A DNA stretch of 64,000 nt from assembly GCA_018466975.1 (NCBI GenBank), contig CM031561.1:4340001-4404000 (forward strand), given 5' to 3'. The stretch's first letter is position 1. Each line of letters begins with the position of its first letter. A model generated the notes under the pieces. It was not told the DNA's origin. It did not search any database and was given only the letters and a program-made list of their open reading frames with translations. Shown here in pieces: positions 1-20,982 of this stretch. This DNA comes from Sparassis latifolia. Its lineage: Eukaryota; Basidiomycota; Agaricomycetes; Polyporales; Sparassidaceae. Both the position numbers and the translations under genes were made by a program.

Positions 1-261
1 GCCCACTGCTCAGAATAACATCTATGACAGTGGGCCCACTGCTCAAAAGTACCCCTATGATGGTGGGCCCACTGCTCAGAAGTGCCTCTATGGTGGTGGG
101 CCCATCGCTAAATAATAGCATTATGGCGATGGGCCCACTGCTCAGAAGTACTCCTATGGCGGTGGGCCCATTGCTCAGAACTACCCCCATGGCGGTGGGC
201 CCATCACTCCAGCCTTCCCTTCATCGCCATGGGCCCATCGCTGACAGCTCTCTACACAAAC
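1..261 (+). repeat. GGGCCC-rich tandem array, segment A (forward)
   Basis: About eight imperfect 30-33 bp units of the form TGGGCCCAYYGCTCAGAA followed by a short variable tail (for example CTATGGTGGTGGGCCCATCGCT). The window begins inside the array. The orientation is the same as the arrays at 19540-20898 and 24296-24862 and opposite to 350-2048. The segment runs straight into the conserved block at 262-349. Confidence 0.9.
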
Positions 262-349
262 CGATGGGCCGACGTCCGCTGGCAGTCCAGTTCATGACAA
301 TGTCAGGGTAAATGGGAGTTCAGTTCAGGTAACATGACTGAAAGGTGTG
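262..349 (+). repeat. Array-capping conserved block, copy 1
   Basis: This non-repetitive block contains GTCCAGTTCATGACAATGTC and then AGGGTAAATGGGAG and AACATGACTGAAAGGTGTG. It is nearly identical to 20899-20982 and similar to 24863-24939, always in the same direction and always just downstream of a forward GGGCCC array. Similarity to copy 2 stops after GGTGTG at 349, which suggests an element boundary or recombination point. No reverse-complement copy was found in the window. Confidence 0.8.
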
Positions 350-2048
350 TGGAGCTGTTCTGAGCCATTGGCCGACTGCCATAGGTAGTGTTCTGAGCGA
401 TCGGCCCATCGCCACGGTGCTATTATACAGCCATCGGCCCACCGCCACCGTGGTAGTACTGAGCGATGGGCCGACCACCATAGGTAGTGTTCTGAGTGAT
501 CGGCCCACCGCCACTAGGGCTATTATAGAGCCGTCGGCCCACTGCCATATGTAGTGTTCTGAGCGATCGGCCTACTGCCATAGGTATATGTCTGAGCGAT
601 CGGCCCACCGCCACGGGGCTATTATACAGCCATCGGCCCACCGCCACCGTGGTAGTACTGAGCGATGGGCCGACCACCATAGGTAGTGTTCTGAGTGATC
701 GGCCCACCACCACTGGGGCTATTATAGAGCCGTCGGCCCACCGCCATATGTAGTGTTCTGAGCGATCAGCCTACCACCATAGGTATATTTCTGAGCGATC
801 GGCCCACCGCCACGGTGCTATTATACAGCCATCGGCCCACCGCCATAGGTAGTGTTCTGAGCGGTGGGCCGACCGCCATAGGTAGTGTTCTGAGCGATGG
901 GCCCACCACCATAGGTAGTGTTCTGAGCGATCGGCCCACCACCACGGTGCTATTATACAGCCATCGGCCCACCGCCATAGGTAGTGTTCTGAGCGGTGGG
1001 CCGACCGCCATAGGCAGTGTTCTGAGCGATCGGCCTACCGCCATAGGTATATTTCTGAGCGATCGGCCCACTGCCACCGTGCTATTATACAGCCATCGGC
1101 CCACCGCCATTGGAGCTGTTCTGAGCCATCGGCTGACTGCCATAGGTAGTGTTCTGAGCGATCGGCCCACCACCATAGGTAGTGTTCTGAGCGATCGGCC
1201 GACCTCCATAGGTAGTGTTCTGAGCGATCGGCCACGGTGCTATTATACAGCCATCGGCCCACCGCCATAGGTAGTGTTCTGAGCGATGGGCCGACCGCCA
1301 TAGGTAGTGTTCTGAGCGATGGGCCCACCGCCATAGGTATATTTCTGAGCGATCAGCCCACCGCCACGGTGCTATTATACAGCCATCGGCACAACCCCAT
1401 AGGTAGTGTTCTGAGCGATGGGCCGACCTCCATAGGTAGCGTTCTGAGCGATGGGCCCACCGCCATAGGTATATTTCTGAGCGATCGGCCCACCGCCACG
1501 GTGCTATTATACAGCCATCGGCACAACCCCATAGGTAGTGTTCTGAGCGATGGGCCGACCTCCATAGGTAGTGTTCTGAGCGATGGGCCCACCGCCATAG
1601 GTAGTGTTCTGAGCGATCGGCCCACCACCACGGTGCTATTATACAGCCATCGGCCCACCGCCATAGGTAGTGTTCTGAGCGGTGGGCCGACCGCCATAGG
1701 TAGTGTTCTGAGCGATGGGCCCACCGCCATAGGTAGTGTTCTGAGCGATCGGCCCACCGCCATAGGTAGTGTTCTGAGCGATCGGCCCACCACCACGGTG
1801 CTATTATACAGCCATCGGCCCACCGCCATAGGTAGTGTTCTGAGCGATGGGCCGACCTCCATAGGTAGCGTTCTGAGCGATGGGCCCACCGCCACGGTGC
1901 TATTATACAGCCATCGGCACAACCCCATAGGTAGGGTTCTGAGCGATGGGCCGACCTCCATAGGTAGTGTTCTGAGCGATCGGCCCACCACCACGGGGCT
2001 ATTATACAGCCATCGGCCCACCGCCATAGGTATATTTCTGAGCCCATA
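350..2048 (-). repeat. GGGCCC-rich tandem array, segment B (reverse)
   Basis: About fifty units of roughly 33 bp (core GCGATCGGCCCACCGCCATA, then GGTAGTGTTCTGA), interrupted by a variant carrying GGTGCTATTATACAGCCATC. On the opposite strand these are the same units as segment A. The unit is 11 codons long, so several frames stay open for hundreds of codons on both strands; this is a by-product of the period and not evidence of genes. The array ends near AGCCCATAAGC at about 2050. A degenerate stray pair of units lies at about 2480-2570. Confidence 0.92.
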
Positions 2049-2151
2049 AGCATGGGTCGCCTGAAATATCTGACTAGCCTGGGCATAGCTGAGTTATTTG
2101 CCTTGCCCTAGGTTGTCAACTGGGCTCGTATCGTGTCCGTGTCGTCTTGGT

Positions 2152-2300
2152 GAAGCATGGGTGGGTGAAGGAACATACCAGATGATTCGTCAGGGAGTAG
2201 CATAGGTGGATGTATGAAACATGGAGATTGGTCGGGGGGAAGCATGGGCGGATGTATGAAACGTGGAGATTGGTCAGGGGGAAGCATGGGCGGATGCCAC
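2152..2300. repeat. 42-bp tandem repeat
   Basis: Two exact-length 42-bp units start at 2208 and 2250, with a third partial unit at 2292 and a degraded one upstream. The core is GGATGTATGAAAC, then TGGAGATTGGTC and GAAGCATGGGC. The period is a multiple of three, so the minus strand reads as a short peptide repeat (HPPMLPPDQSP). I see no surrounding gene that needs it. Confidence 0.8.
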
Positions 2301-2679
2301 ACCTGGTTGCCCGAGCCAAGAAGTAGACCATACGAAGTGAACGGATTGTACCGAAGTCAACCGAAGAGCACGAAGTAGGCGAGGATGCGGGCGTGTGCAA
2401 ATCAGCGTCATTTGAGCCGAAGGACACCACAGAAGAAGGGGCTCCGGCGAGTCGTTGCTCATGCGGCACCTCTTGCTCAGACCTATCGGCCCACCGCCAT
2501 AGGTGTAGTTCTCAGCGATCAGTCAACCGCCATGGGCATATTTTTCAGTGATTGATCCACCGCCTAACAGGGCAATGATGGAGCTACCGCCGGCCAATAA
2601 TTTCCACGTAATCCACCCATCATTCCCTCCAATTCTGGTTAGCTCACTATCAGCTCTCCTTGCAGTATCACACTCTCTC

Positions 2680-3060
2680 CCACTGTGGGAAGGGTTGGCG
2701 AACTGTGGCGAATATCCTTCGCCATCTGAACATGGAGTTCAGAATGACTTCGCCAAACTCTCCCAATTGGCATCGGCGTTTCGAGACATGCATCAGATAC
2801 AATTTGGGATGTGCCCTTCTGGGTAGAGTATGTGGAGACGAATGGCGGTCCTTTCCACCGTGAGTAGGGTTGGCGAACTGTGGTGGATATCACTCGCCAT
2901 CTGAACATGCAGTCCAGAATGACTTCGCCAAACTCTCCCATGTGGCATTGGCTTTCGAGCCATGCATCAGATACCATTGGGGATGTGCCCTCCTGAGGAG
3001 AGTATGTGGCTACTATGTTTCGCCTTACCACACCAGGTACATTGCCCAGGTTCAAAGACA
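2680..3060. repeat. Tandem duplication of about 176 bp
   Basis: Two adjacent copies begin near AGGGTTGGCGAACTGTGG at about 2689 and 2868. They share ATGACTTCGCCAAACTCTCC, CATGCATCAGATAC and TTGGGATGTGCCC and are about 85 percent alike by eye. Apart from this and the 42-bp repeat, 2049-3115 holds no gene I can support. Confidence 0.75.
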
Positions 3061-3115
3061 TGACAACCTTATATTCGACACACTACAGCACGAGCGGACG
3101 CCTGGCATTGGGCGA

Positions 3116-3835
3116 TTACATTCCTAACTCACGCAGCTGCCGCGTCGCCTCCTGCAGCTCTTCCAGCACCACATCCAGGTTCTGATCTGTCCTCTGGTGC
3201 AACCAACTAGTGAGGTTCGCGACGCGAACATGCAGCTGTTCAAGCTGCACCAGTGTAGACTTCGGAGGCGGTGTACACCTTCTCCTACGTTCTCGAGGTT
3301 CAGCAAGACTGTAAGGTGCTGGAGCGTACCACTCACCCAGGGATCACCAAGTTTGTACCACCAGGCCTCCATAGGGCTCCCGCCGCCCAACCTGGCGATC
3401 CCATTTCCACCAGTAGTCGGGTGAATCCTCGAGTAGGTTCTTAGGGCGAGGAACGAGGGTGGTGGGGCGTGGAATCGCCTTGGCGTCAATGCTGATGGGG
3501 CGCAGAACTTCGCGATTGAAAGTGCAGGCGGTGAGGACACTGGCGATAACTCCGCCATGGTCAATATGGTCAGCATGACCCGCCAACGCGAGGTCGCCAC
3601 AGATACCCCTGACGGCGAACTGCACAGGACTCAGCAGGGTCAGGCGATATCAGCAAGAAAGGCGTACCATCTCCCGGCGCAAGCCTTCCTCCCAACGGAC
3701 CTTGGTGAAGTGATCTGGGTCAGGCTCCAGTGCCAGAACAGCTTCTTGGATCCTCCAAGTGTAGACTTCCAACTGCAACCTCCCTCTGGAGAACAGGCAG
3801 GGGCGCGCATCTGATGTTGAAGACTGGGCAGACAT
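3116..3835 (-). CDS. Small helical protein of unknown function, next to KDZ transposase
   Basis: I do not recognise this family. The proposed start at 3833-3835 begins MSAQSSTSDARP. The first exon reads as an amphipathic stretch (EVYTWRIQEAVLALEPD). A middle exon includes LLEDSPDYWWKWDRQ. The last exon is a charged, heptad-like coiled coil (LVQLEQLHVRVANL ... LDVVLEELQEATRQL) that ends at a TAA at 3116. The exons lie in different frames and need two or more short introns that I have not fixed exactly, so the internal structure is tentative. It lies 3' of the KDZ transposase on the same strand, inside the array-bracketed island, and so may be cargo of that element. Confidence 0.45.
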
Positions 3836-4047
3836 GACGGTGAGTGGATGAGCCGAGGTTGATATCTGATCGACCTTATCTGATGTCTGATGTCATGCGA
3901 TTGGAGAGCACATGCCGAGATGAAGCCCTCAGGCGAGGATGGAGTCACTTCGCCAAATGTGATATTGGTGAGTAGGAATTACATACATGACGATCACTAC
4001 ATCGATATAGCAAACATGAATATGCGTACACCCCAGTGAACCCTGAC

Positions 4048-7000
4048 TCAAAGCACATTTTCATCGCCCGCCCTTTCGTCCTCAATGTCCAGGGCGAGGA
4101 TGTGGCTGAAGGCGTCAGTGGCGTGGCTGGCGAAGGTCCGCCACATACTCACTTGCCTGGCGGCATAGCAAACATGACCCCGCCAGGAAGGATCCGTCAT
4201 CTCGAGCCAGTGAGCCCATCGTTCCGCATTCCGCTTGAAGGTGGCTATGGTCCAGGCCATTTCCGAGTGGACCAAGACACGCTCCTCCCTCCATCTCTCA
4301 TATCGAGCTCTGGCACGCAGCCAATTCACTCTATAGACTGGAGGGTAAATTAGCAGGAGGCCTAGAGATCGATCGGACAATTACGAACACTCGTCCATCC
4401 ATTCTGATGAACCTCGATCTCCAGCGACATCCATGGTCCAGAACCAAGCCAGGTTGACGTTCCTGAGCCCGGAGGTGCTAGCCTCGATGACGGCAGTCTT
4501 CACGTGCAGGTCCTTCTTATCCAAAGGGCGATAGAGGGCCAAGTCTTCATCGGTGGCGCCCAAGCGCATAATGGCGCGTCGGTTGGCGGAATAGAGCCTG
4601 GCGCGAGGCCAAGACGGTCTGATCGGCAGCATGAACCTCCGCCTGTGCACGGGTCATGGTTCCGACGCTGTTGGCGGGACGAACCCTCTTGCGGTAGAGG
4701 TAAGACTTCAGTCCAAGCGCCATGCGAAGCTCGTGGAGGATGTCATTCATCAGGCCTTTGCGCAACTCCAACTCTTGGGCCGCCAGGGTCTGGAGCCCGT
4801 TGGCGACGGCGGCCACGAATCCGATCTGCGAAGGTAAATTCAAGGAAGCTTGCTCGGGTGGAATCGCATCCTCGCCATACTCAGCGTCCTCCGGGTGTAT
4901 TTGAAAAGGATTCTCATCCAAGGAATCCCAGAGCGCACCATCGTCACGATCTTCCATGGCGGGAACGTCCTCCAACCTTCCCATGAACTTCTCAGAGCGA
5001 CGTTGGAATGTGAGAATGCTGACTTCGAGGCGCTGACGGCGCTCGAGAGTCTTGAGGTCCTCCGCCACGCTCGGATTTTGACCCGCCTTGCGGATATCAT
5101 TCGCAAGCTTAAGCCTGAAGGCCGTCAGAGCTCTATTTTTGTAAAGACGAGGCAAACTCACTGTGCTTCTTGAATTTTGAGGCCAGTCGACAACCATCCG
5201 GCGGTGCCCTTCTCCAAGCCCTTGGCGGACTCCTCGCCCGCCAGTCTGAGTTGGGTGAGGTCTTTACCCGGGGCTTGCATTCACGTCAACTACATGCCAC
5301 ACGACGATGGAAGGATACTCACCCTTCCTGAGCTGGACATCGAAGGTGTCCATAATCTTCGGATCATTTTGGCGAGCCTCCATAGCGTCGTCGTACTCCT
5401 TCTGCCATGCCTCAAGGACCTCCTCATCTGTGGATGCAGATAAAGCTTCAAAGGACTCCTTGCTTCTTGGGAAGCCCAGGAGCACGCGTTTCCACTTTGT
5501 CATCAAGGTTGGCACTGTAGGCAGCATAAGGCAGGTGGCAAATAGGGAAGGAGGAACCAGGCTCACCCATGCGAGTCGTCTTCTTCCAGTTGGAGTCATT
5601 CATGTGATCGTCAAGGACTTCTTGGCGGTGAGCTCGGGTCATGCCCCTGGTACTGCCTGAGACCTCATTTGTGGGCGCCCACAGGGTCTCGATGACCTCG
5701 CCATCGACCATACCAGCGCCAACTATAAAGTTGGGCGAGAACCGTTGGAAGCAGCAATCTTGGTGTCCGTGCACATGAAACAAGCCGATGCCTTGGTCTA
5801 TCTTGAGCTCGAAGGGCATCCTCAGATAGGCGCTGTGGCGGAAACGTTTGCGGACATGGACGCCATACTGGCACATGATGTCGTACATGACGAGGACGAG
5901 GGTGATACGGTGAGGTCAGGAGCGCATTGCTGAGAGAGTAATCCATATTCATTTGTCTGCAGAGGGTGCGTCGGTGAGAATGAATCATGACAAGAGACAT
6001 ATGCGAACCTTTCTCCCTTCTGGAAATCGACGACAGTATGAGGGACGAAGAAACCATGTCTGGCGCAAGCAGTGGCCCCGATTCCTGTGGCGTCGAGGTT
6101 GGCGCGATCCACATTGGCCTGATTGACAGCGCGGTGCTCATGACAAGTGGAGCGCTGGTGGGCTTAGGAGTCAAGGGCGGAAGAACGTGCAGCCAGACAT
6201 GCACCTGATGGGACTCCATGGCCACCGCCAGATGAGCCTTGTAATCCTCTTGGCCGACCATAAATGCCTGGCCGTCACTGAGGGCGATGTCCTCCTCGGG
6301 GTGCTTCATCTTCATGTGCTCTGCACTGAAATTGCCATCCATGACAAAGCCGCGTTTGAACTTCCACTGCACTGGATCCGCTTGCCAATCAAAAGGCAGG
6401 TTGAGCCCAAGCTGGGGACAGGCGGGACAAAAGATGGCGAGGCCACCCTTCTCCACAGGACGGAGGGCATCGTGTGAGAAGCTGTGCCACTTGCGATATT
6501 TGAGTTGGCGCCATTGGCGGGACACCCGCATCAGCTCACGATAACGGTCCTGGCGAGGAACTGGCATGAACGGTTGGGCCATGGGAATGCATGTGAACAC
6601 TTACAGGAACGGTGCCAGGGAAGGCATTGCTCGTGACCCGTTTGAGCTTGCTGTAGTAGTTCAATGCCGCCGTCTTGCACTCTTTGTTCTCCAGAAGGAA
6701 ATCGTCGAGGACGGCGAATGTGAAAGCGGTATGGGGATCCTTGCGGTACCAGGGTAAAGTCCCATTTGAAGAAGCTGCATGTCACACTCCACTGCCATCT
6801 CACACTGGCACCAGTCAACGCCGATATGGTGAACGCCAGAGATGTCGACAATGACTATGATCCGATTCCCGTAACTGTCACGGCGAGGTGGCCGGGAGAG
6901 CACCGGTGGCACATCTTCCTCCCAAGTGGGATCGGGAGCATCGTCGGTTTGCCTTGCTTCACCGTCAAGGGTGCCTGCCAGAGGTGCAAAGTTGAATGGG

Positions 7001-7732
7001 ACCTCGCCATCATCTGAGACCTCGCCATCATGTGCATTTAGGTCTTCATTGGAGGCATTCCAGAAATCGGACCCCGGGGCCACCACCGGCGCAGGGTTGT
7101 TATGTGCTGTGAAGGCGCCCAGAGGGCAGGGATCTCCGCCATGCCCCAAATGGATGCAGACGCCAACCCGATACAGTGATGCCGGCTCAAAATACTGACC
7201 CTGCCAATGCTCTATCCGATGGAAAGGAGCACGCTGATGGCCGTTACGACAGCAGTCGGTACAGGTGAGCGGTCTGCCCATACAGTCCAGGCATCGCCAC
7301 CGTCCCTCGCCAACCTTGCATTCCGCACAGTTTCTGGGCTCAGGCGGGGCTTCCATCTCGACAATGGCATGAAGATAGTCATCACGGTGGGGTATCCAGT
7401 CCCTCATGAAGTCATTCTGGGTCTATCGCGCATGGTCAGACCGTCAGATGGTCATGGCGGGAGTGCCCACCTTTGTCTTCGAGCCGCGGATCCAGCTGAA
7501 TCGGCACACCTATGTTGCCCAGGACGTCGCCATCATCCAAGTTAAACAAGGAGCCTGAAGCTGGAGCCTTCGATGGACTTTTGGAAGGCGATGGCACGTT
7601 TGAACCCGTGGGCATGGGCAAAGGTACGTCCACATAGCGTACTCCCCTAGTGGTCTGCTTAGCTACCTTGGTCACAAACTCAACCTCGTCATCCAGGTCT
7701 ACAACGAGCCTGCTTTTGTTGCGTCTGCTCAT
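4048..7732 (-). pseudogene. KDZ-family transposase, nearly full length, apparent frameshifts
   Basis: This is a transposase of the KDZ superfamily, predicted to be nuclear. The N-terminus (MSRRNKSRLVVDLDDEVEF) is followed by a CxC2 cysteine cluster (CAECKVGEGRWRCLDC, CTDCCRNGH) and HRIEHWQGQYF. The KDZ core follows: CPACPQLGLNLPFDW, HEHRAVNQANVDRANLDATG, VDFQKGERFAYV, YDIMCQYGVHVRKRF and FHVHGHQDCCFQRFSPNF. The C-terminal helical part ends VNWLRARARYERWREE. Several GT-AG introns are clear, for example the roughly 56-nt intron after LDPRLEDK. The conserved frame jumps by one base near 6745, near 5900 and again near 4610, so the copy seems to be recently damaged, unless these are sequencing errors. 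Catalytic acidic residues were not assigned. It lies head-to-tail with the TET/JBP gene upstream on the same strand. Confidence 0.88.
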
Positions 7733-8276
7733 GGTTCAGGTCAGTGGGGAGTCGTATTCCAAGCCAATCGATGAGCATTGTGTCCCTATCGCACAACACG
7801 TGCAAATCACACACGGCCTTGCTGCCCATCAGACTACTCATCAAGGTGGTTAAGAATGGCTGCAATGCCTGGGCCTTATCACCTCGTGGTCTCTTTAGGC
7901 ACCATATCAGCGTTATGCAGATAAGGATGCCATGTTGGCGAGAGGTCCGCCAATTGTATGTCGCTCTCAGTGCTAACTTTGCCTTGACTCGGAGTAGCAT
8001 AATGCTCAAAAGGGAAACGTGCACTTGCACCGCGCGCTCGCCAACGCTGCCGCCATCTGCCCCACTAGCACTCACAACTTCTCGACCGAATACATTTCGC
8101 CACCATCTCCGCCAACTTCGAGGTCCGCCAACCATATGCTGCCATCAGTGATAACTACACCTTGAGCTGAACACTGTCGAGATGTGAAATGCGCACTCGT
8201 ACCGCGCGCTCGCCAACCTTCAGCTAGGATTCGGAAATTCGAGACTCCATACATTTCGCCATCACCTCCGCCAACT
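7733..8276. other. Intergenic stretch between KDZ and TET/JBP genes
   Basis: I see no convincing coding sequence. A roughly 180-bp segment is loosely duplicated: CGCGCGCTCGCCAAC occurs at about 8031 and 8205, each followed by ACATTTCGCCA and CTCCGCCAACTT. GCCA/CGCCA tetramers are frequent here, as they are across the whole island. Confidence 0.5.
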
Positions 8277-9656
8277 TTATCCCGCCAATGAAGCTGCCAT
8301 CGACAGTCTCCATCCCCTGCATAGTGTTCTCGTCTCCATCAGTCTTTGGCATGATGTCCCTCTAATAAGCGAGCCAGTTAGGACCTGTTCTGAGTTAGGA
8401 ATGCAGACTCGGTGATGAACTGTGCACATGCCAATGTGTGAGGCGTAATATGAAGCTTGCATCCAGTGGGGCGCCGGAATGCCTAGCCTGTTCTGGACAC
8501 CCTCTCGCATGAAGTATGCATAGACGAGCCTTTCGCCATCTGCTCGAGTGACGCCATGACGAATCGCCTTTCCACAGAAGGCTATGACAGTTCCAGGACT
8601 ATAATCGATGGCGACACGCATGGCGGGGAACTTCAACCACGCGCAAGTGTAGTTGCCCAACATCGCCAACAGGTCGTAGAAGGTGTATCTTGTCTTGCTA
8701 TCTCGGTGGAAAGGAGTTTCCCGGTTGGTGATCACCTGGAGCGCATTGAATGGCGACGACCAGTTCAGCGTCATCTCTCGCAATTCTGGGTCTTGCTGGA
8801 TCAAACCCAAGCACTGGCGTCCTGCGGCATATAGTGTTGGGTGAACGACGGCCAGGATGGCGCCCAGCAATGTGGAGGAGTCATGAATATCACGCAGCCA
8901 ACTTCTTCCGCCCTCAAGCTTTAGGCTGGCGGAGGTCTCCAGCCTCCCAGACTCCATATGCTGCAAAGCCTGTCCAGACGCAAGGCAAATGGCGTGGCGA
9001 GGAGACCCACTTCTCTTACTTGTTGGAACCAACCTGGCGAGAGACACAAGGAGCCCGCTGGGAATTGGGCACACTCCTCAGGAGGCAAGAAGTACAACGG
9101 GTTGTGTCGCCAACTGGCGGTGGTGCTGGAAGGCTTACTGGCTGCTATTGCTGGGTGTAGGGCCCTGGTCGCTTGGAGCATCTTCGTCTGACAAATTTGT
9201 CAGATCACAGCACAAGGCTGGGCAAGCCACTCATCTGGCGGTCTGGTCTTGGAAGTATCCAAGCCAAGATGCATCCGTGCATGTCCACGAGGGTGGCGGG
9301 CTGGTCTATGCGTATTTCGCTCTTACCAAATGGAGGAGGCCACTTCCATTGTCGCAATATCTATCAATGTCCCACTGCAGCCTTACTATTACAATGGCAT
9401 GATCAGTGTGATCAGACCTGCGGCAAGACTAATGACTACCAGGATTACGGATGGCCTTCACAAGAGCATCTGCAATGCCATTGCACTCCAATAGGAGGGC
9501 GGATGGCATGGATGGAGGCACTTCTATAGATGGCGCAGAATGGGCTGCATGAGTGGCCAGATGGAGCTTTCGGCGAAACATGAGCTCCAAGACTCCTGCT
9601 ATCTGATCGGTCAGTGGCATGGGTGACAGATTGCTCATCTTGATACTGTCTGCCAA
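8277..9656 (-). CDS. TET/JBP-family 2-oxoglutarate/Fe(II) dioxygenase (predicted 5-methylcytosine oxidase)
   Basis: This is predicted to oxidise 5-methylcytosine (or a related base) in DNA, using Fe(II), 2-oxoglutarate and oxygen. The catalytic exon (about 8975-8277) carries LGAILAVVHPTLYAAG, then NRETPFHRDSKTRYTFYDLL with the metal ligands H (8706-8708) and D (8700-8702). Next come YSPGTVIAFCGKAIRHGV with the distal H (8556-8558) and GERLVYAYFMR with the presumed 2OG-binding R (8529-8531). This order and spacing fit fungal TET/JBP proteins. The exon before it (from 9181) is joined by a clear intron (GTAAGAGAAG ... CTGGACAG). Further upstream, MADSIKMSNLSPMPL (9656) and GLLHL before GTAAGAG (about 9335) are likely earlier exons, but those splice sites are unsettled. 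No stop or frameshift interrupts the catalytic core. The TET/JBP-KDZ pairing is known in mushrooms. Confidence 0.85.
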
Positions 9657-10314
9657 TCAATGGGACGATTACAGCATGCATCGGTTGAAGGAACGCACAG
9701 GTGTATGGCGGGCTCAGGCGGTTGGCTTGCAGATGCAGGGGAGAATGTAGGAGGGGCCAGAATGGCAAAGAACAGTATGCATTCATCTGCCTGCATATTG
9801 CTTGCAAGCACGTCCCTTGCACATCTCACATGTTCATCATGCCACCGAGCCGGACATGATGCCGCCATGCCGGATCACGGGCCGGGTGGTCCGCCATGTC
9901 TGGGCCCTTCGTCACTGCCATCTAATTGGCCGAGCCTAACTCCGAGGAAGCCCTTTATCCCACAGATTGGCATGCAGATGATCGCCAGATTGCCTCCGCC
10001 CAGCATTCGTGAGATGAAGTTGGCGTGGTGTGCTCTGCCATAGAAGCGCATTCAACATTGCCTTTCACCAGGCATGAATGCTAGTGCATACCTACTACCA
10101 CCTCCCGCCACTGCAAAAAATACACATACAATGCTTCAGCAGTCACCACACACCATGGCGAGGAGGGTAATTGGTGTAAGCCCAAATGGGCCATCAGCAC
10201 GTGCATGTTGAGTTGTGGGCGGCCGATGAGGAAATGGACAGAGCACTGCCCATTGAACTATCGACCCCTTCACTGCTCCCAACACAAAAATCTCATCCTC
10301 GACATCAAGAAAGC
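9657..10314. other. Divergent intergenic region, TET/JBP (minus) and HMG-like gene (plus)
   Basis: I see no gene that I can support. The two flanking genes point away from each other, so this 650-bp stretch probably holds both promoters. I saw no clear TATA box or strong inverted repeat. Confidence 0.4.
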
Positions 10315-13300
10315 ATGCCGGCGAGATTTGTAATTTTGATGGAGCATCAGCCCATACTCTCTGAGAAGCTGCGGTCTTATGACACGGCAGATGCCAAGGG
10401 ACGCAAGACTCTGGTTCAGAGCTTGCGCCAGAAGCTGAAGACACAGTTTGTCGACACGTCAAATTATGACGACATCATTGTGGAAACTGTGAGCAGTGTT
10501 TCATGTCTGTGAGGTCCCCACTAACTCTCACCACAGAAAATCCAAGAGTGGCTCAATAACCATGCCCGCCATGCGCAGGAGAAAGCGACGAAAAAGTGTA
10601 TGCATGTTTCTGGCAAGCCCAATGCCTTCAAGGTGTGGGATGCGCTGGAGAGGGACAAGGTGACTGAGGCCGCGCGAGCACTCGCCGCAGATAAGGGTTG
10701 CAATGTCTCCAAGGTGTGGAGAGTCGCACGGAGTGCCGAATGGGCAAAACTGTCCGAGGAGGAGCAGAAGGTGTATGAGGAAAAGGCGGAAAGTTGGCGC
10801 AATGGCACTCTGGATGATAAGACGAAAATGAAGTGCGTACCTCCTGTCACGTAGCATAAGGCAAATCCTGACCTAAGACAGGCTGAGGGAGCAGCGAATG
10901 ATGCAATATCTGAAGAAGTTCGCCAAGACTATGTGGGACACCATGGGCATTCGCATGGCATTCATGCTAGCATATCCGAAGGAAGCGGGGAGTCTGAAGG
11001 TAGAGATGTGAGCGTAGACCGTCCGACTGTCGCCATCTGCTAACCCCCGAGTGAAGGGTGGAGGTCAACCACGCCATCACCAATGAAACTCCATTCGGGC
11101 CTATCCTGGGTGGCTGCGTGCTTACCAGCCTCTAGCAAAGGTGTTCTCTGAGTGGGCCAAAGGCAAATACGGTAAGAAGACCTCAGTTGCATTGTCGCTG
11201 GCACACTGACCTGATTCCTTAGGTGTGACTGAGACTACGGTGACGGTGAAGAAGACACCTGCCGATTGCATGCAGGCCATGGACAAGATTCAGTTGACGG
11301 CCAACGGTTTTCCTCTGCTCCCGTCGGTGCCCGAAGGTATGGCGGAAGCACCTCTCAAGGTGATGAAGGTACAAGTTCGAGACTTCATGAATCATCACTA
11401 CGGTATGACACTCCCACTGGGTGTTGAGAGATGCTGACCAGTTTACAGCATTGGCGAAGGGTGTTCGGAACTGCAAGTCGCCATGGACGAAGCTGAACAG
11501 CATAGACGACATCAATGAGGTTATTCCAGCGGAGATGCTACCTGAGAACTTCCAGTGGATCGATCCCTCAAAGATGACAAGTGTTCCCGTTCGTGCCCTC
11601 CTCGACCACTGGCAGGCACGCCAAGAGGAACATGAACCTGAGCAGACCATGCAATTCACCCAGTACTTCGACAAGGATGGCGAAGCTGCTCCCACCAAGT
11701 ATGATCCTCTTCCACCACTTGACGGATCAGCACAGGCATTAGAAGAAGGATCTGAACATGAGGTCCAAGAAGCACTCACACCGAAGAAGGCAGGGAAGGC
11801 GAAGAAGAAGGGTAAACCTGTGCGCAAGGTCACGGGAAAGGCGGCATCGAAGGCGACAAAGGGCAAAGTGGCCCCTGGCGGAGCCAAAGGCGGTGGGCGT
11901 AAACGCAAGACGAAAGATGCATACGACTCGGAAGATGATGCCAGAAGCAGCCAAGACTCTGATCGGAGTTCGCCAGATATACCCAGCATGGCTTCCGAAG
12001 AAGATACGGCCAGCGATGAAGATTCAGGGGATGGCGAGAGCGTGATTGCGAATAAAGCGAAGGGCAAGGCAGTCGCCACCACCAATGGACGTAAGGCTAA
12101 CAATGGCGGTGCACCTCAAGCGAGTGGTAGCGGCGGTGCCAAGACGAAGGCAAAGCGAGGTCTCCAAGACCTTCCTCTGGGCGAACTGCACAGATTTGAC
12201 ACAGAGGAGACCGATGAAGCATGGAGTGAACTGGAGCCCAGTACAAAGAAGCTCAGGCTTGAGCTTCAAGGCCGAGCCCCGTGTCTCACTGGCAGGAGTA
12301 CTGTGGGGAGTACTGTGCCCCACCTCGTCAAAAGGAGAGACATGTTTCTCGCCACCCTTTCCGTCGAACCGCGATACCAGGATATGCTGAAGCAAGTCAA
12401 GATTGCGACTGTGGTGAGCTCCTTTCATGGGGATTCATAGCCACTATTGATCATCCGTCATATAGCCCCAGGTGTATCATTTCGCCAGGTATGATCCGAT
12501 TCCCTGGAGTGAATGGTCGTATAGACAGCGCTACCTCCCACCGTCATTTCATGCAGTGGACAACTTTGACATCGTTGAGAACTGGTTGGGCGACAAACCA
12601 TGGCTGACAAAATATCGGTTCTTACATCCACAGGGCGTACAACAATCTGCACTCGTGATTGGTATGGCGCTGAGGGACCTCACACGATCTCAGTTCATTG
12701 AGGAGGGCGAACCGACCAACCTTCCCGACTATGTGGTGAACTCGGCGATCTCATTTGACACAGTAGAGCAGCTGCTTCGCTGTTGCGAGATCATTACCTT
12801 GGACATGGTGGAAGGGAACGTCACCCATGCCATGGTGAAGCCAGTGAGCAAGCCTGCCATACCCGGTGCCCCACAAGGTGGCGATGGCCTTGGGGGCCAG
12901 GAGGAGCAGGAAGGTGATGCCTCTGCAAGAACTCACGATGGCGCTGCTACCGCTGCCAAAGTTCACAAGGCTCGCCAGCCTGCCCCCATGGCTGACAAAC
13001 CAATCATTCCAAGTGGAGGAGATGAAGGGCCGAGCCAGGAGACAGGTGGTGGGGCCTCTGACGATGGTGAAGAGAATGATGCACACTTGTCCGTACCTAG
13101 CAGTGGTGCTGAATGACCGCCACCACCTCCATTTATACCTAAAACGAGGAAGGCGGCAGCCACGGAAGACCATCCATCAGGTCAAGCCAAAGCGCTCCAG
13201 GGAAGGTTGATCACCGATGCCCTTCACAGTAATATCCCCGGCAGGATCACTCGCAGTCAGCATCAAGCGATGGATGAGTCGCCCGCCAAGAATACCTGCA

Positions 13301-13680
13301 GTCAGCATCCACTAGGAGCTGTTAAAGATTTGAAGAAGCTTCCTGATCCAAAGCGGAAATGTCAACCAGCACGTCCCGAGCCCGATGGCAAAGATAGCTC
13401 TGGCGAAAACAATCCGCCATCTCAGAAGTGTGGACATGGTACTCGGGACGAGTTGGTAGTGGCCTCGCCGAGGAAGAAGAATGTGAGGGCCGAGGACTCA
13501 GATGATGGTGACAAGCCTCCCGCAAAGTGAAGATGAGCTCTGCCTCAGACCCCGGAGGTCAAGGACAAGGGAGAAACCAAGCTGAAGCTGGTGCATCTGG
13601 GGAAAGCAGCCGCCAAAGTGAAAGAGAGTGGCCAAGTTGGCGCAGGTCGCAAGACCCGCAGTGGCGGCACCAGACCTTGA
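10315..13680 (+). CDS. Large basic nuclear-type protein with HMG-box-like segment, unknown function
   Basis: The chosen start is MPARFVILMEHQPILSEKL at 10315. Exon 2 opens KIQEWLNNHARHAQEKATKK and carries GKPNAFKVWDALERDKVTE and then WAKLSEEEQKVYEEKAE. This Pro-Asn-Ala-Phe plus Leu-Ser-Glu-Glu-Glu pattern resembles an HMG box. Later exons carry QYLKKFAKTMWDTMGIRMAF, a Lys/Gly/Ala-rich basic tract (AGKAKKKGKPVRKVTGKAAS) and YDPIPWSEWSYRQRYLPP. Introns at about 10489, 11402 and 12414 have clean GT-AG ends. The reading frame breaks near 11110, and in-frame TGAs fall at 13114 and 13527 before a good C-terminus ending at 13680, so either extra introns or some decay exist. Lys-rich low complexity suggests DNA or chromatin binding; that is inference. 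Confidence 0.6.
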
Positions 13681-13896
13681 CAATATAACTCCAGTTCAAA
13701 GTAGACTCGTAGGCTTCCACATTGTTTAATGTGACCCATAGATCTACTTAGGTAAAGCCATGGAGATGGTGGCAATGGCGAGGGGAGTTGGCGAGAACTT
13801 CAGCAGGCATTCAGTTGACTTGGAGTGGCGGTGGCGAATCGAGTGCATGGAGATTCCATGCTAGGTTAAAAAGCATGTATATCAATACTCTAATGA

Positions 13897-16800
13897 CTAC
13901 ACATTGTGGCTATCTGGGCGAAAGGTGGTGAAGACCATGACAGAGTCGACCTTCTCTCGGAATGCGTCCAGAGACTTCGCCACCAGCGAGGTTTCCTCTC
14001 TCGCCGTCGCCACCTCCTTCCCCACCTTCTTCGCTTCATCCAAAGCGGACGTCGCCACCGCCATCGAATCCTCTTTGGCGAGCGCCAATTCCATCTCCAG
14101 CTTGCTCGCTTGAGCGATCGCCTCTGCCGCCGAAGACCTGAGCTCCTTCTCCATGCTGTCTGACCGCGCTGCCTGGAGCTCCATCGAATGACGGAGGTCG
14201 CCAATCGCCCTGCAGCTTGTCGACGCCCGCTTGGCTCACCGCCTGGTTCGCGCCTTGCTCCAACCTGTTGACCTTCTCCTTGAGCTCTGGCAGGCAATGT
14301 CGCTTGGCGACGAGATCCGCCACCGCCAACTTCACGCCTCCTGAAGCTCGATGGTGACCGCCTGCGAAACTCCTCCATGGCCAACTTGACCTCTTCGCGA
14401 ATGCTCCGGGCATTTTCTTGAAATGCGGATGGCGGGTTGATTCGCTGGAGTGCCGCTGTGATCTCTGCCTTGACGGTGTTGAGGTCCGCCATCCTCTCCT
14501 GGAATTGGACTTCCATCCCGCCCTTGCGCCAGGAACTCCTGTTGCAACTCGGCACACCCGCGCAGTCATCGCTGGATGACTGCGAGGTTTCTTCGCCACT
14601 GGGGGTGTCGCCTTCATTCACTGGAGCGGGACTTCCTGTAGACACTCGCTGGACGTCGCGCAAGTGGGGTGCTGTATCCCTGGTCAACGCTGCATGGATT
14701 CGAAGCTGTGGCGGGCGCACTTACCCTTGCTGGTCGGAGGCACTGCTCTGAGGCGGTTTGCCTTCGCATCCCTTTTTGCCTCTGCCTCCTTCTTTGCTGC
14801 CTTGCGGTCCAGTGGGGCGCCCCTCTTAGCTGGCCTTCGCCCTTCATCGAGATGTCCTGCCTTCGCCAATGTGGAGGACTTCGCTCCCTTCAACGCCTTG
14901 GATATCTCCAGGGAGGGCGTCACCTCCTGTGCCACCTCGGCAGCTCCTGCGCTCGTCTCGTGGGGCATCAGCAGCGAATGCCGCCGATCGTCGTGCGGCC
15001 GCTCCAAGGACGCGCGCTGTTTCATGGTTACATCGACTCCAGCTGCAACAAGATGTCCTGCTTACCTCATCCTCCACCACCTCTGCCTGATACTCTGGCG
15101 CATCCTCTGGTTCGTCGGCGACTGGTGTCAGCATGCGCTTGCTGCTGCTAGCTTGCGGCGGAGCAGCTGGCCCTGTTTGGAAGGCCATAGCCCGCACCGC
15201 CTTCATTGTCAGCCTGGCGGCTTCCTCCATGCCATCGCCTTCCACCAGAGGCATCTTGGCTGCTGCCTTCGAGCACTCGCCGCCTTCCTGGTGATCATGG
15301 GCACCATTGGGCCTGAGCGACCTCCCATCGCCACTCCTTGCCATCTGCCCGCCCTCCTTCGCAACAGACTTGGCAGGCGGGACCTCATCCGCCTCACGTA
15401 CTGAGGTCCTGGTGACCTCGCCACCATCTTGCACACCTGAGTTTTGGCTCCTCACCGGCTTTGGCTTGGGTCCTGATTTCTTACCTTCGCCAGGTTTGGC
15501 GACCGCACCAGACTTGGCAGGCGCGCCAGACTTGGAGACCTCGCCAGAGTTGGCGACCTCGCCAGAGTTGGACAGAGCCACAGCTCCAGTGGCGGTGGCG
15601 GACTTGGTGGCGCGCTTGGACTTCGACGATTTCTCCACCGAGGCCTCGCCTTCAGCGTTGGCTTCATAGGGTGTGACGGTCGCCTTCTGCTTCGTCGCCT
15701 CGACCTCCTCGCCACCCTTGACCATGGAGCTGGATGCTGCAGCATTGCGTGTCTTGGTCTTCTTCGGCAGCTTGCACTTCGACGCTCCCATGACCATGGG
15801 TTCTGCACCGTTGGGCTCATCGGAGTCGACCTTGACGTTGTATGGAGGTGGCGATGTGGGCAGTGGCTTGCCCTCTACCACCAGCACTGCGCACATCTCT
15901 TGGAACTCACGCTGTGCGGTGTGTGAGTTTCCTCGCAGGGGCACGCCATCCGTGTTCCTCGGCGCGATGCTGCAACTGACGCCTCGTGCTGCACATTCGA
16001 GGCAGCGACCGAAGTTGGCGGTGTTGAGCTTGCATGGCCCCTCTTTCTCCTGGCAGCCAACGCAAGGGACGAGCTGCAGGAACATTAGCACAGGTCAATG
16101 TCTCACAAGATCGTTACTCACCGAATCTGTTGCATGTGCCCACATGAAGTCAGACACGCGGGTGGACGTCTTTTTCCACATGTCCTTCTGCGACACCGTC
16201 ACCTTCGCCTTCCCCTTCGCCGTCGCCTTCCCCTTCGCCGTCGCCTTTGCCTTCCCCTTCCCCTTCGCCTTCAGTGCGACATGAGGCGTCGCCGTCATCC
16301 TCATTGTCTGTTTGACAGGTTTGGCAGGGGCGTTCGTCTTCGCAACACCGTCGTTACAGTCCCCTGCGGTCTTGGCGGGTAGATTGGAAGGCGGTGCCGG
16401 AGTCTCGTCTTCGCTTTCGATGAACTCCTTGCTCTTGTATTCCTTCGTCGCACGCTTCTTCTTTGGCGGCTTGACGGTCGGTATTTCCTCTTCATCGCTT
16501 GACTCCTTCGCCTTCCTCTTCCCGCTCTTCTTCGTGCTCACCTTCGAGCCCTCCACCTCGGTCTGCGCCATCCTCTTCTGCGCACGCTGCGCTCGGCCAG
16601 AGGTGGTCGGGGCCTCGCCTTTCTCCTTTGCGACCTCAATCAGCTTCATCCGCTTCGCCTTCGGAGCCGCCTCCTCATTCTCACTCTCCTCACTCGACTC
16701 TGTGATGACCGCCTTGCGCTTTCGGAGTGATGGGGCAGCTGGCGAGATCGATATTGGTCTGGCAGTTGGCGGAGGGGGCGACGCCGCATCGACCTCGATG

Positions 16801-17670
16801 GATTCGGGCTGGCCTGCACCCGGCACGTCTTCCGCCATCTCATCGTCATCATCTTTGTCGGCATCGTTGTCCTCATCACTGTCGGCATCATCGTCGTCCT
16901 CGCCCTCCTGCTCCTCTCCCTCTCCCTCTCCCTCTCCCTCTCCCCCATCCTCTTCTTCACTCATCGCATGTGCCGCCTTCCCCTGCGCCTTCTCCTTGCT
17001 CTTGCCCTTTCCCTTGTCCTCCCCCGCCTCCACGTGGACGATACGCTCACCCACCATGCCTGTCCCGACATCATTGTCAGCTCTCTCCTTGCCTTTCCCC
17101 TTGGTGACGAGGTCCCCGGTAGCCAGGTCCTCCTCGCCACGTCCCTGGGTGTCATCATCGGCTGGCACATTGCCCCAGCCCTCCGCTGGTGTACTCTTCA
17201 CCGGTGGCAGCTTGCAATATGGATCTGGTGCAGTCAGTGTGTCGCTCGACGCCTCACAATGCTTGTGACTCACCTTCAGTCCACCACTGCCTTCCCAGGT
17301 CCTCACACTCCCCATACTCGCGCACAGCCAGAGGGTACCTCTTGTATATCCTCTCGTCGTCGTTCGATATGTGGTCCAGCCGCGCCAGGGCCTTCTGCTG
17401 ATATGCCCGGGTGAATTCCAGCAACGCACTGATGACGATGCCAGGCATCCTCAACGACTTCAAGGGCTGCGGGAAACTCTTTTCAAGCCGACTCTGTGTG
17501 GCATATTCGGTGAGGGTATGCCAGACCTGCGACCGATGACTTACCACTTCGAGGTAAATCCTCGCCTCCCAGTCTGAATACTGAGGGTCGTCCTGGCGAG
17601 GCGCCGCTGCAACAATGGCCGTCAGTCGCGCGGCCTGCAGAACATAGTTGGGGTCAATATCCAGAGTCAT
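13897..17670 (-). CDS. Zn2Cys6-like, low-complexity, coiled-coil protein, unknown function
   Basis: The start at 17670 (MTLDIDPNYVLQAARLTAIV) opens a helical first exon. A long acidic/basic low-complexity exon follows with KGKGKAKATAKGKATAKG, runs of Asp/Glu, and a GEGEGEGE stretch encoded by a CCCTCT microsatellite at about 16916-16945. After an intron at about 16128-16081 comes a cysteine cluster, C-x2-C-x6-C-x9-C-x2-C-x6-C (CVGCQEKEGPC ... CLECAARGVSC), which matches the spacing of fungal Zn2Cys6 binuclear clusters. More repeats (SGEVANSGEVSKSG) and a C-terminal coiled coil (AEAIAQASKLEMELALAKED) end at a TAG at 13897. In Gal4-type factors this cluster is usually N-terminal; here it is internal. 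Exon joins between 15000 and 14200 are tentative. Confidence 0.6.
16916..16945. repeat. CCCTCT hexanucleotide microsatellite
   Basis: About five CCCTCT units lie in frame inside the Zn2Cys6-like gene and encode a Glu-Gly repeat on the minus strand. Length variation would add or remove two residues per unit without shifting the frame. Confidence 0.8.
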
Positions 17671-17801
17671 GGCGAGCTTGGCAGAAGAAAGCGTGAGGGT
17701 GTTTCAAAAGCAGAGGTTGCAGTACAGCGGAGGCAGAGCAGACGATGCTATGAGCTGACAGACGCGATCTGCACCAAGTTCAAGTTCACACGCCACCCGA
17801 C

Positions 17802-17818
17802 CACGTGCTTTGCACGTG
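17802..17818. promoter_or_regulatory. Palindromic double E-box in divergent promoter
   Basis: CACGTGC-TTT-GCACGTG is a perfect 7-bp inverted repeat containing two CACGTG hexamers, typical targets of bHLH factors. It sits in the 210-bp gap between the divergent starts at 17670 (minus) and 17881 (plus), so it could co-regulate both genes. Function is inferred from position only. Confidence 0.5.
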
Positions 17819-17880
17819 ATCGCTGGACTTGCGCGATTTCTCAAGTCTCTCAAGGTCAGTGTGACCTGCCGCAAGTTCTC

Positions 17881-19438
17881 ATGGCTCCCAACAGTAAGTT
17901 CTATTGCTCTCCTTGTGGAATCTGACTCCTGTGTGATGTTATCTGACCTTTCTATGTCATATCAATCCCCTTTCTACAACTGATCTCCCGCGATCCAGGA
18001 CTGATCGAAGACTTGTCTGCTCGCCACAATCTACCTGCCATGGCTAGTGACGCGGAACCTCCTGACACGCTGGACATTACGATGGGCGAGTTGGATGAGG
18101 AGGATAGTATCGCTGAGCCCCGTCGTCCACTCATTTCGGATCTCCTTGACTCTCCTGGATCTGCCCAGATCTCCTTGCCTCTCCACTCTGCTTCTCAGAC
18201 ACCCCTCATGCCCCGCCACACTACCCCGTCCCTGGCGGCTCCATTTGTGCCATCCAACTCGCCACATGAGCATCTTCACTGCCACGCCTCGCCAAAGGTA
18301 CAGGCGTCATCTGGATCTGTGGCGCCTGTGGAGGGAAGTTGCGCACTTATTCCTGACCCTCTGGCGCCAGCTTGGGATGAAAGTCGTGGCAGTTCGCCAA
18401 TCCATAGGCATGCACTCATCTCAGATTCCACCCCCACTGCACCCGGTCGAATGTTCGACTTCGACACTCCTGGCATCTCGCCAATCCCTCGACGCGCCCT
18501 GTTGGAAGCTACTCCCCTTCCTCCACCAGCTCACACTTTCGACTTTCACACTCCTGACACCTCCCAACTCCCTCGACGATCGCTCATTGCTGAGCCCCTT
18601 GATGCTACGCCACGTACATCCATCCACTTCGATAGTCAAGCAAGTACGCCGATGGCGAGGGGCATGCTGGTGGACGAGACACTTGATGCGGAACCAGTGC
18701 CGAAACTGCTGGACTTTGACAATAGTCCTCCCACCACGCCAGGACGACAGCGAGCTCTGGTGATAGACAGCCCTGGCACGACGCCTGTGCGTAGCCAGGT
18801 CCGGTGGCTAAATAGTCCCAGCGCTTCACCTCCAAAGAGGCGGCCTTTGTTGGACGATGTTTTAAGTCCACCGCCTCCGCCATCGGCGCCCTCTCACTCG
18901 CCAGCTCGCACTTTCGATGACAGCAATTTCCGCCATGATGCACCTGTCATTCACTATATGAAAGGCAGCATCGAGCCAGTCACTGTTACTTCCAGGATGC
19001 CAAGTCTGGCAGCACTTCCAGATGAGCTGCCAATCCATCGTCCCACCCATTGGGAACAGGTTCCAGGCTTATTCCCAGATACCACACAGCTGCTGCCAAT
19101 GGCAGTCTCTGGAGAGACGAATGCCGCTTCTGGCTCACAAGTGGCCCGCCTCGGTAGATCGTTTGCGCAGATCGCAGCAGAGGCAGACAGTTCCAGTAAG
19201 TACATCCCTGGCAACCTTCAGTCTGATGTTGACCTTATTCATAGTGGACGATGACGAAGGTGATAGCTTTGCGGTTAGTCGTCGTCGCGCCATGTTGTGG
19301 GAGCGCATTGTACGTCTTCAGCGTGAGCTCAACCTCACTGAGGATATGCACGTTGCGAACCTCAATGCCAGCTCGACCGTGTTCCAAATGGGCTACATTC
19401 TGAGGGACATTCGTGGTGAGGCGTATCGCAGCAACTGA
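17881..19438 (+). CDS. Ser/Thr-Pro-rich repeat protein, unknown function
   Basis: The start ATGGCTCCCAACA (17881-17893) splices over GTAAGTT...GATCCAG (17894-17998) to LIEDLSARHNLP. The long second exon consists of degenerate repeats of about 25 residues that combine an R-R-A/S-L-I/L motif with FDFDTPGISPIPRR-type segments; at least six can be seen. They are rich in SP/TP sites, as in proline-directed kinase targets. After a second intron (GTAAGTACATCC...ATTCATAG) the last exon is a compact helix (AMLWERIVRLQRELNLTED) that ends GEAYRSN. No domain is recognised. It is the outermost gene before the forward arrays and is the best conserved open frame of the three unknown cargo genes. Confidence 0.65.
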
Positions 19439-19539
19439 ACTAGTGTCTTTGAGCGTTTTGGTGTTAGCAATATATGACCGCTATGTAACAGCTTGTATAC
19501 CAGTACAAAATGGATACATTCACTTCTGCATCACTAAGC

Positions 19540-20898
19540 TCTAAAGCCCATCGCTCCTCCAGTGTACTCTTCAGATGGGCGGACTGCGCTCGCCATCACC
19601 AAGGCATGTTGTTGCCAGCAATTGGCCCATCGCCAAAGGACCTGAGTGAAAGCTTCACTGCATGGGAATATCGCTCCGCCAGCAAAGGGCCCACTGCCAA
19701 GGGTCAGAGGGTTGGCCATCGCCAAGCCGTGTTTTCGCCACCAATTGGCCCTCCGCCATGAGTGCTGATGAGTGATGGGCCCACCGGCAAAGGTCAGAGG
19801 ATTGGCGATCACCAGAGCACGTCATCACCACCAATGCGCTCGGAAACTGCAGGGCTGTATGTGACAATGGGCCCATTGGTGGCGATGACATATCCTGGTG
19901 ATCGTCAACCCACTGGCCTTTGGCGGTGGGCCGATTGCTGGCGATAACATGCTCTGGCATTGGCCAACCCACTGGCTTTTGGCGGTGGGCTGATTGCTGG
20001 CGGAAACATGTCCTGGCGATGACCTATCCCATGGGTGCTTGCAGTAAGGCCCTCACTGAGGGTGCTTTGGCGATGGGCCGACTGCTGGCGATAACATGCT
20101 CTGGCAATGGTCAACCCTCTAACCTTTGGTGGTGGGCCCATCCTTCAGGTTACACTCTGGGTGATCGGCCCACTGCTCATTCGTCATACTCTGACGGTGG
20201 GCCGATTGCTCAAACAAACATGCTCTGGCCATGGCCAACCCTCTGACCTTTGGCGGTGGGCCGATTGCTGGCGGAAACATGTCCTGGCGATGACCTATCC
20301 CATGAGTGCTTGCAGTAAGGCCCTCACTGAGGGTGCTTTGGCGATGGGCCGACTGCTGGCGATAACATGCTCTGGCAATCATCAACCCTCTAACCTTTGG
20401 CGGTGGGCCCATCCTTCAGGTTACACTCTGGGTGATCGGCCCACTGCTCATTCGTCATACTCTGGCGGTGGGCCGATTGCTCAGACAAACATGCTCTGGC
20501 CATGGCCAACACTCTGACCTTTGGCGGTGGGCCCATCCATCATCTCATTCATCATACTCTGGCGGTGGGCCGATTGCTCAGACAAACATGCTCTGGCCAT
20601 GGCCAACACTCTGACCTTTGGCGGTGGGCCCATCCGTCATCTTACACTCGTGGCGATGGGCCCACTGCTCATTGATCATACTTTGGCAGTGGGCCCATCA
20701 ATGGCGATAACATGCTCTGGCGTCGGCCCACCCTCTGACCTGTGGCGGTGGGCCCATTGCTTAACGGTTACAACACTGTAATATGCCCTGCTAGTGGGCC
20801 GAGCACTGGGATAAGAACACTAGCGGTGGGCCCACTGCTAGTATCCCACACATGAAAGGTATGGGCCCACTGCTGGTAGAGGTCAACATGGTGACAAT
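19540..20898 (+). repeat. GGGCCC-rich tandem array, segment C (forward, higher-order)
   Basis: The core GGCGGTGGGCCCAT/GGCGATGGGCCGA recurs every 30-40 bp with intervening spacers such as CTGGCGATAACATGCTCTGG. Higher-order structure is visible: a block containing GTGCTTGCAGTAAGGCCCTC at 20035 recurs 271 bp later at 20306. The core orientation is opposite to segment B on the far side of the gene cluster. The array ends at the conserved block at 20899. Confidence 0.88.
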
Positions 20899-20982
20899 GG
20901 GCCGACGTCCACTGGCTGTCCAGTTCATGACAATGTCAGGGTAAATGGGAGTTCAGTTCAGGTAACATGACTGAAAGGTGTG
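20899..20982 (+). repeat. Array-capping conserved block, copy 2
   Basis: Nearly identical to 262-349 (GGGCCGACGTCC, then CAGTTCATGACAATGTCAGG and AACATGACTGAAAGGTGTG). Identity ends at 20982. The next base begins a satellite-like unit (ATTGTTTGAGTTTCTTGTAG), which places a breakpoint here. Confidence 0.8.

Follow-up and report, generated by a model that had tools for sequence, protein, structure and literature searches.

Transposons that pair a KDZ transposase with a TET/JBP dioxygenase are already known in fungi, and Iyer and co-workers, writing in PNAS in 2014, are said to have described such elements with extra proteins, including one with a divergent HMG domain. Fungal transposons have carried TET/JBP genes with them as they spread, and at issue is whether these enzymes act specifically on the element that encodes them or more generally. 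Here we describe, in a 64,000-nucleotide stretch of the Sparassis latifolia genome (the window; contig CM031561.1, positions 4,340,001 to 4,404,000), a KDZ element of about 20 kb that carries a TET/JBP gene and four further cargo genes. It is marked along its length by a short word, TGGCGR, which it shares with non-autonomous partner elements. In the Agaricomycetes, TET+ Kyakuja transposons pair KDZ transposase and TET/JBP, and Kyakuja is the only TET+ lineage given for the Polyporales in the available part of that account (Kojima 2025, PMC12730594).

The present element resembles the TET+ Kyakuja elements, as far as that source describes them, in combining KDZ and TET/JBP in one element with CA..TG termini and a 7-bp target duplication. 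It differs from Kojima's two Laccaria Kyakuja families, given there without terminal inverted repeats, in its imperfect terminal inverted repeat (TIR) of ~86 bp (PMC12730594). The main text of the same paper, in the portion available, makes no mention of HMG, tandem repeat, subterminal, accessory or Sparassis, and it speculates that mushroom-type TET enzymes act without a target (PMC12730594). We regard the element as likely Kyakuja-type; given its ~86-bp TIR, it is a variant of TET+ Kyakuja rather than a plain member. Beyond what is attributed to Iyer et al., the locus provides a whole element with its ends and copy number, orphan Zn2Cys6-like, SP/TP and small genes, the tag, and a non-autonomous partner. 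No description of these other cargo genes, the inverted repeats, the tag or the partner was found in the literature searched, with supplements and most subscription papers outside the search; the S. crispa genome paper makes no mention of transposons, KDZ, TET or repeats.

A second point of comparison belongs to a different superfamily, VANDAL21 of Arabidopsis. There, in the parts of the reports available, the transposon protein VANC binds a family-specific word and methylation is lost (PMC5735166, PMC10398659). The present word is likewise enriched in one transposon family, dense in arrays and rare elsewhere, the comparison covering the remainder of the window and eight other KDZ loci. In VANDAL21 the motifs are described as mainly non-coding, with arrays in one orientation (PMC5735166), whereas here the word also lies in coding sequence and on both strands, and a single orientation prevails only in the terminal arrays. 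A further difference is the predicted TET-type enzyme encoded inside the element.

A KDZ transposon that moves six genes

The element is a KDZ DNA transposon of ~20 kb whose six genes move together. The genome searched (41.4 Mb, 22 contigs) has about thirty copies of it, and many of these are decayed. Its right end (window 20775-20982) has at least 41 genome matches, several of them 100% identical, and its left end occurs at no fewer than 40 places. Each search took the best 40 of 126 candidates, so that both counts are lower bounds; the 41 right ends were obtained with two pieces on contig C8 merged and the end at window 264-349 added. For 18 of these 41, a left end on the same strand lies 19.3-21.5 kb away. 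The left ends of six further copies all start CAGCCCATTCAGTCATG, and the two ends form the imperfect inverted repeat. CA..TG termini were present in all six autonomous copies read and in the non-autonomous copy L033. Perfect 7-bp target duplications flank three of the six (TGTGAGG, TTCAGTC, ACCATGA); in the remaining three, the duplication is 23 bp off in one and absent in two, and none was seen at the window copy or at the non-autonomous element N1.

Against window 350-20982, the six further copies are about 95-97% identical in long pieces, with a variable left array, and their flanks differ, showing separate insertion sites. Seven copies compared pairwise are 97.5-98.7% identical over 19 kb, gaps ignored, and a further full copy of 20.6 kb (C10:3660573) was read directly. 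The first-pass annotation had proposed 350-20982 as the mobile block. This block does recur in the six further copies, but its true left end is not at 350: the 349|350 junction falls inside an array unit, and positions 1-349 form the right end of an adjacent element.

All six genes that the first-pass annotation placed at 3116-19438 were confirmed in the sequence (Table 1). The KDZ domain (PF18758) scores 99 bits at 5589-5939 against a cut-off of 26.6, with one internal stop, and the CxC2 profile scores 48.7 bits at 6664-7407. The TET/JBP domain (PF12851) reaches 71.1 bits at 8280-9074 (cut-off 34.9), and the protein aligns with CcTET (PDB 7vpn; E=1.4e-24), including the HxD motif and the distal His. 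Oxidation of methylated DNA is the predicted activity, and in paired copies the gene lies between the two ends. Two of the cargo labels are sub-threshold or motif-level only and should be read as putative. HMG_box_2 falls below the Pfam cut-off of 22.4 bits, with 18.2 bits for the window exon (10525-10851) and a range of 18.2-21.0 bits when three Sparassis relatives are included. The Zn2Cys6-like protein gave no Pfam Zn cluster match in profile searches; its motif CVGCQEKEGPCKLNTANFGRCLECAARGVSC, read from the sequence, fits the six-Cys consensus spacing of fungal Zn clusters, CX2CX6CX5-12CX2CX6-8C, and in UniRef P0010 carries the name Zn(2)-C6 domain-containing. Structure prediction gave uninformative models for the HMG-like and Zn2Cys6-like proteins (mean predicted local distance difference test, pLDDT, 34), apart from a predicted coiled coil at the Zn2Cys6-like C-terminus (pLDDT about 60-68). 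Protein searches with the SP/TP, Zn2Cys6-like and HMG-like sequences returned 22 matches, all from S. crispa or S. latifolia, at 61-94% identity; the SP/TP search scored the best 7993 candidates by shared words, and the other two scored residues 1-150 (Zn2Cys6-like) and 1-300 (HMG-like).

Table 1 Features of the element and its partners, in window positions
Feature	Position	Strand	Basis or remark
Right end (array and terminus 264-349) of non-autonomous N1	1..349	+	direct repeat; N1 = C10:4330448-4340349
Element-wide TGGCGR tag, both strands, 8-18 per kb, coding and non-coding	350..20982	.	word counts
Left terminal array, 1.7 kb, 33-bp units	350..2060	.	repeat analysis; left terminal repeat itself absent
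Small gene, helical C-terminus	3116..3835	-	no Pfam family above cut-off
KDZ transposase gene with CxC2 zinc cluster	4048..7732	-	Pfam profiles
TET/JBP dioxygenase gene, HxD...H present	8277..9638	-	Pfam profile and CcTET alignment
HMG-like Lys-rich gene	10315..13680	+	coding end set from other copies
Zn2Cys6-like coiled-coil gene	13897..17670	-	Cys spacing CX2CX6CX9CX2CX6C; coiled coil C-terminal
SP/TP-rich gene, 467 aa	17881..19438	+	open in window copy (simple splice model)
Right terminal array, 1.4 kb, 59-124-bp units	~19540..20900	.	repeat analysis
Right terminus, inverted partner of left end CAGCCCATTCAGTCATG...	20897..20982	+	ends in TG
Remnant of non-autonomous N2	20983..24948	-	lies to the right of the window copy
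N2 unique middle	20983-22589	-	tag-free
N2 169-bp satellite, carries tag	22590-24157	-	then array
N2 inverted left terminus	24862-24946	-	part of N2 remnant

The cargo genes travel together. Searches with the TET, HMG-like, Zn2Cys6-like (in two parts), SP/TP and small-gene sequences each gave 34-35 loci after merging. At 30 of the 34 TET loci, KDZ, HMG-like, Zn2Cys6-like and SP/TP matches all lie within 20 kb, and the small gene lies within 5 kb of KDZ at 32 of 34 loci, the two others being weak; gene order and spacing are constant across loci. For these counts, any KDZ match was accepted (164 in the genome by profile search of the contigs, or 102 loci among the matches listed once exon pieces were merged), fragments of one locus were merged, positions were compiled by hand, and 10 weak rows belonging to a second TET family were left out of the 30/34 figure. 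The only lone matches were a 35-residue Zn2Cys6-like match at C2:1413683 and an SP/TP fragment at C10:1240253, by the right end of a truncated element. The earlier proposal that the four unfamiliar genes move with KDZ and TET/JBP is thus borne out, and conserved single-copy cargo genes without KDZ-TET/JBP neighbours were not found in this genome-wide test. A function as a DNA-demethylation and chromatin toolkit, which the first-pass annotation also put forward, is putative. In S. crispa, two pairs of Zn2Cys6-like and SP/TP genes are neighbours by tag number (SCP_0100310/SCP_0100320 and SCP_1600530/SCP_1600540), and HMG-like SCP_0502010 and SP/TP SCP_0502030 have close locus tags, which suggests that the same genes may be neighbours there.

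A word laid over the whole element

No hexamer of the element core is more over-represented than TGGCGA (81 observed against 11.3 expected). The degenerate word TGGCGR occurs 144 times in the 17-kb core where 22.8 are expected, while the next CpG context is enriched 2.6-fold. Its density of 8-18 per kb over 350-20982 falls to 0.6-1.3 per kb past 24948, and within the core the mean spacing is 115 bp, with a largest gap of 468 bp. Each of the seven copies holds 69-87 TGGCGA per 16.9 kb, compared with 0-4 per 3.7 kb in the eight other KDZ loci.

The word is densest in the end arrays, where it points outward at both ends. On the forward strand, the ratio of CGCCA to TGGCG is 27:0 in the left array and 6:23 in the right, so that the inverted flanking arrays noted in the first-pass annotation are evident for this pair; for GGCCCA and TGGGCC (30:16 left, 16:19 right) the inversion is less clear.

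The enrichment extends through the genes themselves. Across 9132 coding bases, TGGCGR occurs 72 times (7.9 per kb, both strands), against 25.6 +/- 4.4 in synonymous shuffles that keep protein and codon usage, and none of 1000 shuffles was as high; the segments were open reading frames, not proven exons. With the small gene left out, the five genes are each enriched alone (z 3.5-5.6). TGGCGA ranks first among all hexamers in the coding segments (z 9.3, 200 shuffles), compared with a z of 0.4 in the other open reading frames of the window (13.9 kb). Part of the KDZ segment 5668-6600 was possibly read in the wrong frame in this test, since the window copy is decayed. Since neither the protein sequence nor codon usage accounts for this enrichment, the word does not arise as a by-product of the coding sequence but is superimposed on it.

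Together with its deamination products TGGTGA and TGGCAA, TGGCGA reaches 111 occurrences against 35.7 expected, a 3-fold excess, so that mere survival of one CpG context does not account for it; the deaminated forms alone stand at 1.7 times (TGGTGA) and 0.7 times (TGGCAA) expectation. Past the sixth base, no flanking position of the 187 core sites exceeds 0.08 bit, and no array unit is visible around them.

Non-autonomous partners share the ends and the word

The window copy abuts two non-autonomous elements, N1 on its left and the remnant N2 on its right. N1 has both ends present and was read except for 199 bp; its interior holds no open frame of 100 aa. A third, L033 (C10, 9.1 kb), shares its ends with the autonomous element and has a perfect 7-bp duplication, GAAATCA. 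The partner interiors (L033, N1) showed no similarity to the 20-kb core by BLAST, nor by tblastn to eight pieces of the element's proteins. Most of the L033 interior is made up of 169-bp satellite units in inverted arrays, which surround a 1.5-kb middle. This middle was found at 28 places in the genome; 19 of these have a listed end no more than 9 kb away, and 8 have both ends.

TGGCGA occurs 47 times in L033 and 45 times in N1, against 2.0 and 0.6 expected, counts that tandem copying inflates. Two satellite consensus units contain 3 and 4 words against an expectation of 0.018, and the range in 11 sliced units is 0-3. Of all CpGs, those within TGGCG make up 68% in N1 and 69% in the satellite part of L033; in the autonomous core the share is 18%, and outside it is 4%. 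In L033, positions 6661-7597 contain open frames, with a putative helicase-like (DEAH-type) stretch near 7121-7597, read from the letters; it lies in tag-poor DNA outside the satellite and may be either a capture or an insertion.

CpG decay in the copies

Pooled over the seven copies, CpG transitions outside the tag amount to 37.3 per kb, compared with 3.8 at other C/G sites. Copy by copy, the values are 9.4-62.5 and 2.5-5.3 per kb, and the ratio lies between 3 and 17 in all seven. We read this excess, on the sequence evidence, as the mark of past CpG methylation. In three N copies, tag CpGs were kept at 48 of 71 positions and other CpGs at 27 of 60 (p=0.013), which weakly suggests selection on the word in transposing lineages, not protection in dead copies.

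Proposed function of the tag

TGGCGR may well be a self-address bound by a protein of the element, guiding its transposase, its TET enzyme or both; we judge this reading and its negation about evenly balanced. An element-encoded DNA-binding protein would coat DNA dense in TGGCGR. Our guess at the reader is the Zn2Cys6-like coiled-coil protein, the best candidate by its Cys spacing and coiled coil only. Such a reader would recruit the transposase to the ends, which carry the word at its highest density and pointing outward, and would deliver the TET/JBP enzyme to the methylated CpGs of the element, countering host methylation; the word itself holds a CpG. Non-autonomous elements would need only the address, not the genes, to exploit this machinery. 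Taken to its full extent, the proposal would describe a complete self-addressed epigenetic eraser, with address, reader and delivered TET, on whose address alone satellite elements ride; this fuller version is tentative, and we think it rather doubtful.

Several observations weigh against the self-address. A second TET/JBP family, 30-36% identical, is present at L030 (C9:274001-284000), C10:525080, C10:4950364, C14:687941, C11:2344607 and C8:489276, with a KDZ match 6-14 kb away in several places. In the 10 kb of L030 between its KDZ and TET matches there is no TGGCGR tag and no comparable hexamer (CpG observed-to-expected ratio 0.40), and it follows from this untagged stretch that TET action needs no tag in general. 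Few tags are found in L029 (C11:1846501-1856500), a decayed, diverged relative with pieces of the TET exon, HMG-like and Zn2Cys6-like genes, although this short locus is mostly retrotransposon insertion, being split by a Gypsy long terminal repeat retrotransposon whose repeats are about 97% identical. The unique middle of the N element in the window is likewise tag-free. An 1167-aa transposase is predicted in the C16 copy only, the models of the other six of the seven copies being broken. Purifying selection on the cargo genes was not significant among the seven young copies, save in the shared changes of SP/TP (8 nonsynonymous, 10 synonymous; p=0.05), the SP/TP singletons showing no such deficit (43 and 16). 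Changes in KDZ, HMG-like and Zn2Cys6-like genes are near neutral, and TET singletons (11 nonsynonymous, 11 synonymous) are not significantly below neutral (p=0.12). Protection of tag CpGs also fares poorly: the pooled difference (56/2083 against 545/13534, p=0.003) is weakened by the rank of TGGCG, whose CpG decay is ordinary, 22nd lowest of 56 contexts in the seven copies. By region the picture is mixed, with tag CpGs changing less in non-coding DNA (p=0.003) but not significantly in coding DNA (p=0.19), and the other tag bases changing less in coding (p=0.012) but not in non-coding DNA (p=0.55).

Some of these points fit an alternative reading, in which the tag serves transposition only, TGGCGR being a transposase or helper site for synapsis or for compaction of 20 kb of DNA, and the TET enzyme is unaddressed. 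The outward-pointing word at both ends, densest in the terminal arrays, agrees with this, as do the gene-less elements that keep the word with the same ends, one of them with a 7-bp duplication, and the untagged KDZ-TET stretch of the second family. Against it, known cut-and-paste elements have their end-binding sites in terminal or subterminal positions, and end recognition does not explain why sites should recur every 115 bp across 17 kb of genes. We hold this reading possible but, on balance, not probable. It also accords with the speculation on non-targeted oxidation by AG-type enzymes, as given in the available part of Kojima 2025 (PMC12730594).

It seems improbable to us that the tag arose as a by-product of mutation or composition, either from scattered array units or from a context that escapes deamination, and has no protein reader. 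The word is present in the array units of both ends and contains a methylation-eroded CpG, whose survivors can seem enriched, and tandem copying multiplies it in N elements. Yet survivorship fails, since TGGCGA remains 3-fold enriched when its deaminated forms are counted and the decay of TGGCG is average; no array unit surrounds the 187 core sites, and the word occurs in two unrelated interiors. Still more improbable, in our judgement, is a host reader, such as a methyltransferase or a replication or centromere protein, which the element and satellite exploit or suffer. The nucleosome-like period of the 169-bp satellite in the partner interior and the CpG scars in all seven copies read would suit such a factor, but the word is not enriched in the eight other KDZ loci or the rest of the window, and selection should remove a silencing mark from an active element.

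A tagged element and a partner that shares its ends and word only make TET targeting directly testable. The word is in addition an unusual case of a DNA-level code over the protein-coding sequence of a eukaryotic transposon, and it might provide a sequence-addressed TET tool. If true, the self-addressed eraser would to our knowledge be without precedent as a natural TET system directed by a short DNA word, a claim that we put forward with considerable reserve.

The window copy and its surroundings

The window copy is partly decayed. Its transposase has no long open frame, the longest model under a simple splice model being 625 aa; the HMG-like gene carries a 1-bp frameshift and a premature stop, and the TET gene has a 52-bp gap in its 5' half relative to the six other copies. 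An 86-nt direct repeat (264-349 and 20897-20982) is 98% identical. The same-strand left ends nearest to the right end of the window copy lie 30.5 and 45.9 kb away and the flanks hold no matching duplication, so that we take the junction as rearranged. The region C10:4298000-4365000 is a nest of at least three autonomous and two non-autonomous copies, in which two left ends sit in apparent transposase-gene sequence of other copies. Elsewhere, the KDZ match is short (39.6 bits, 91 aa) and identical in four copies, at C5:4316067, C1:827298, C5:1338036 and C10:3645250, as if a transposase-defective lineage had itself multiplied.

Outside the element, the window contains a separate KDZ match with one stop (30455-30847, forward strand, 98 bits) and a weak NDC10_II match (53775-54617, forward strand, 25.5 bits, slightly below the cut-off of 26.3), the latter within the GC-rich segment at 50-62 kb. 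A Helitron lies at 36758-41131 on the reverse strand, with a Helitron-like N domain, DUF6570 and a PIF1-like helicase in adjoining frames.

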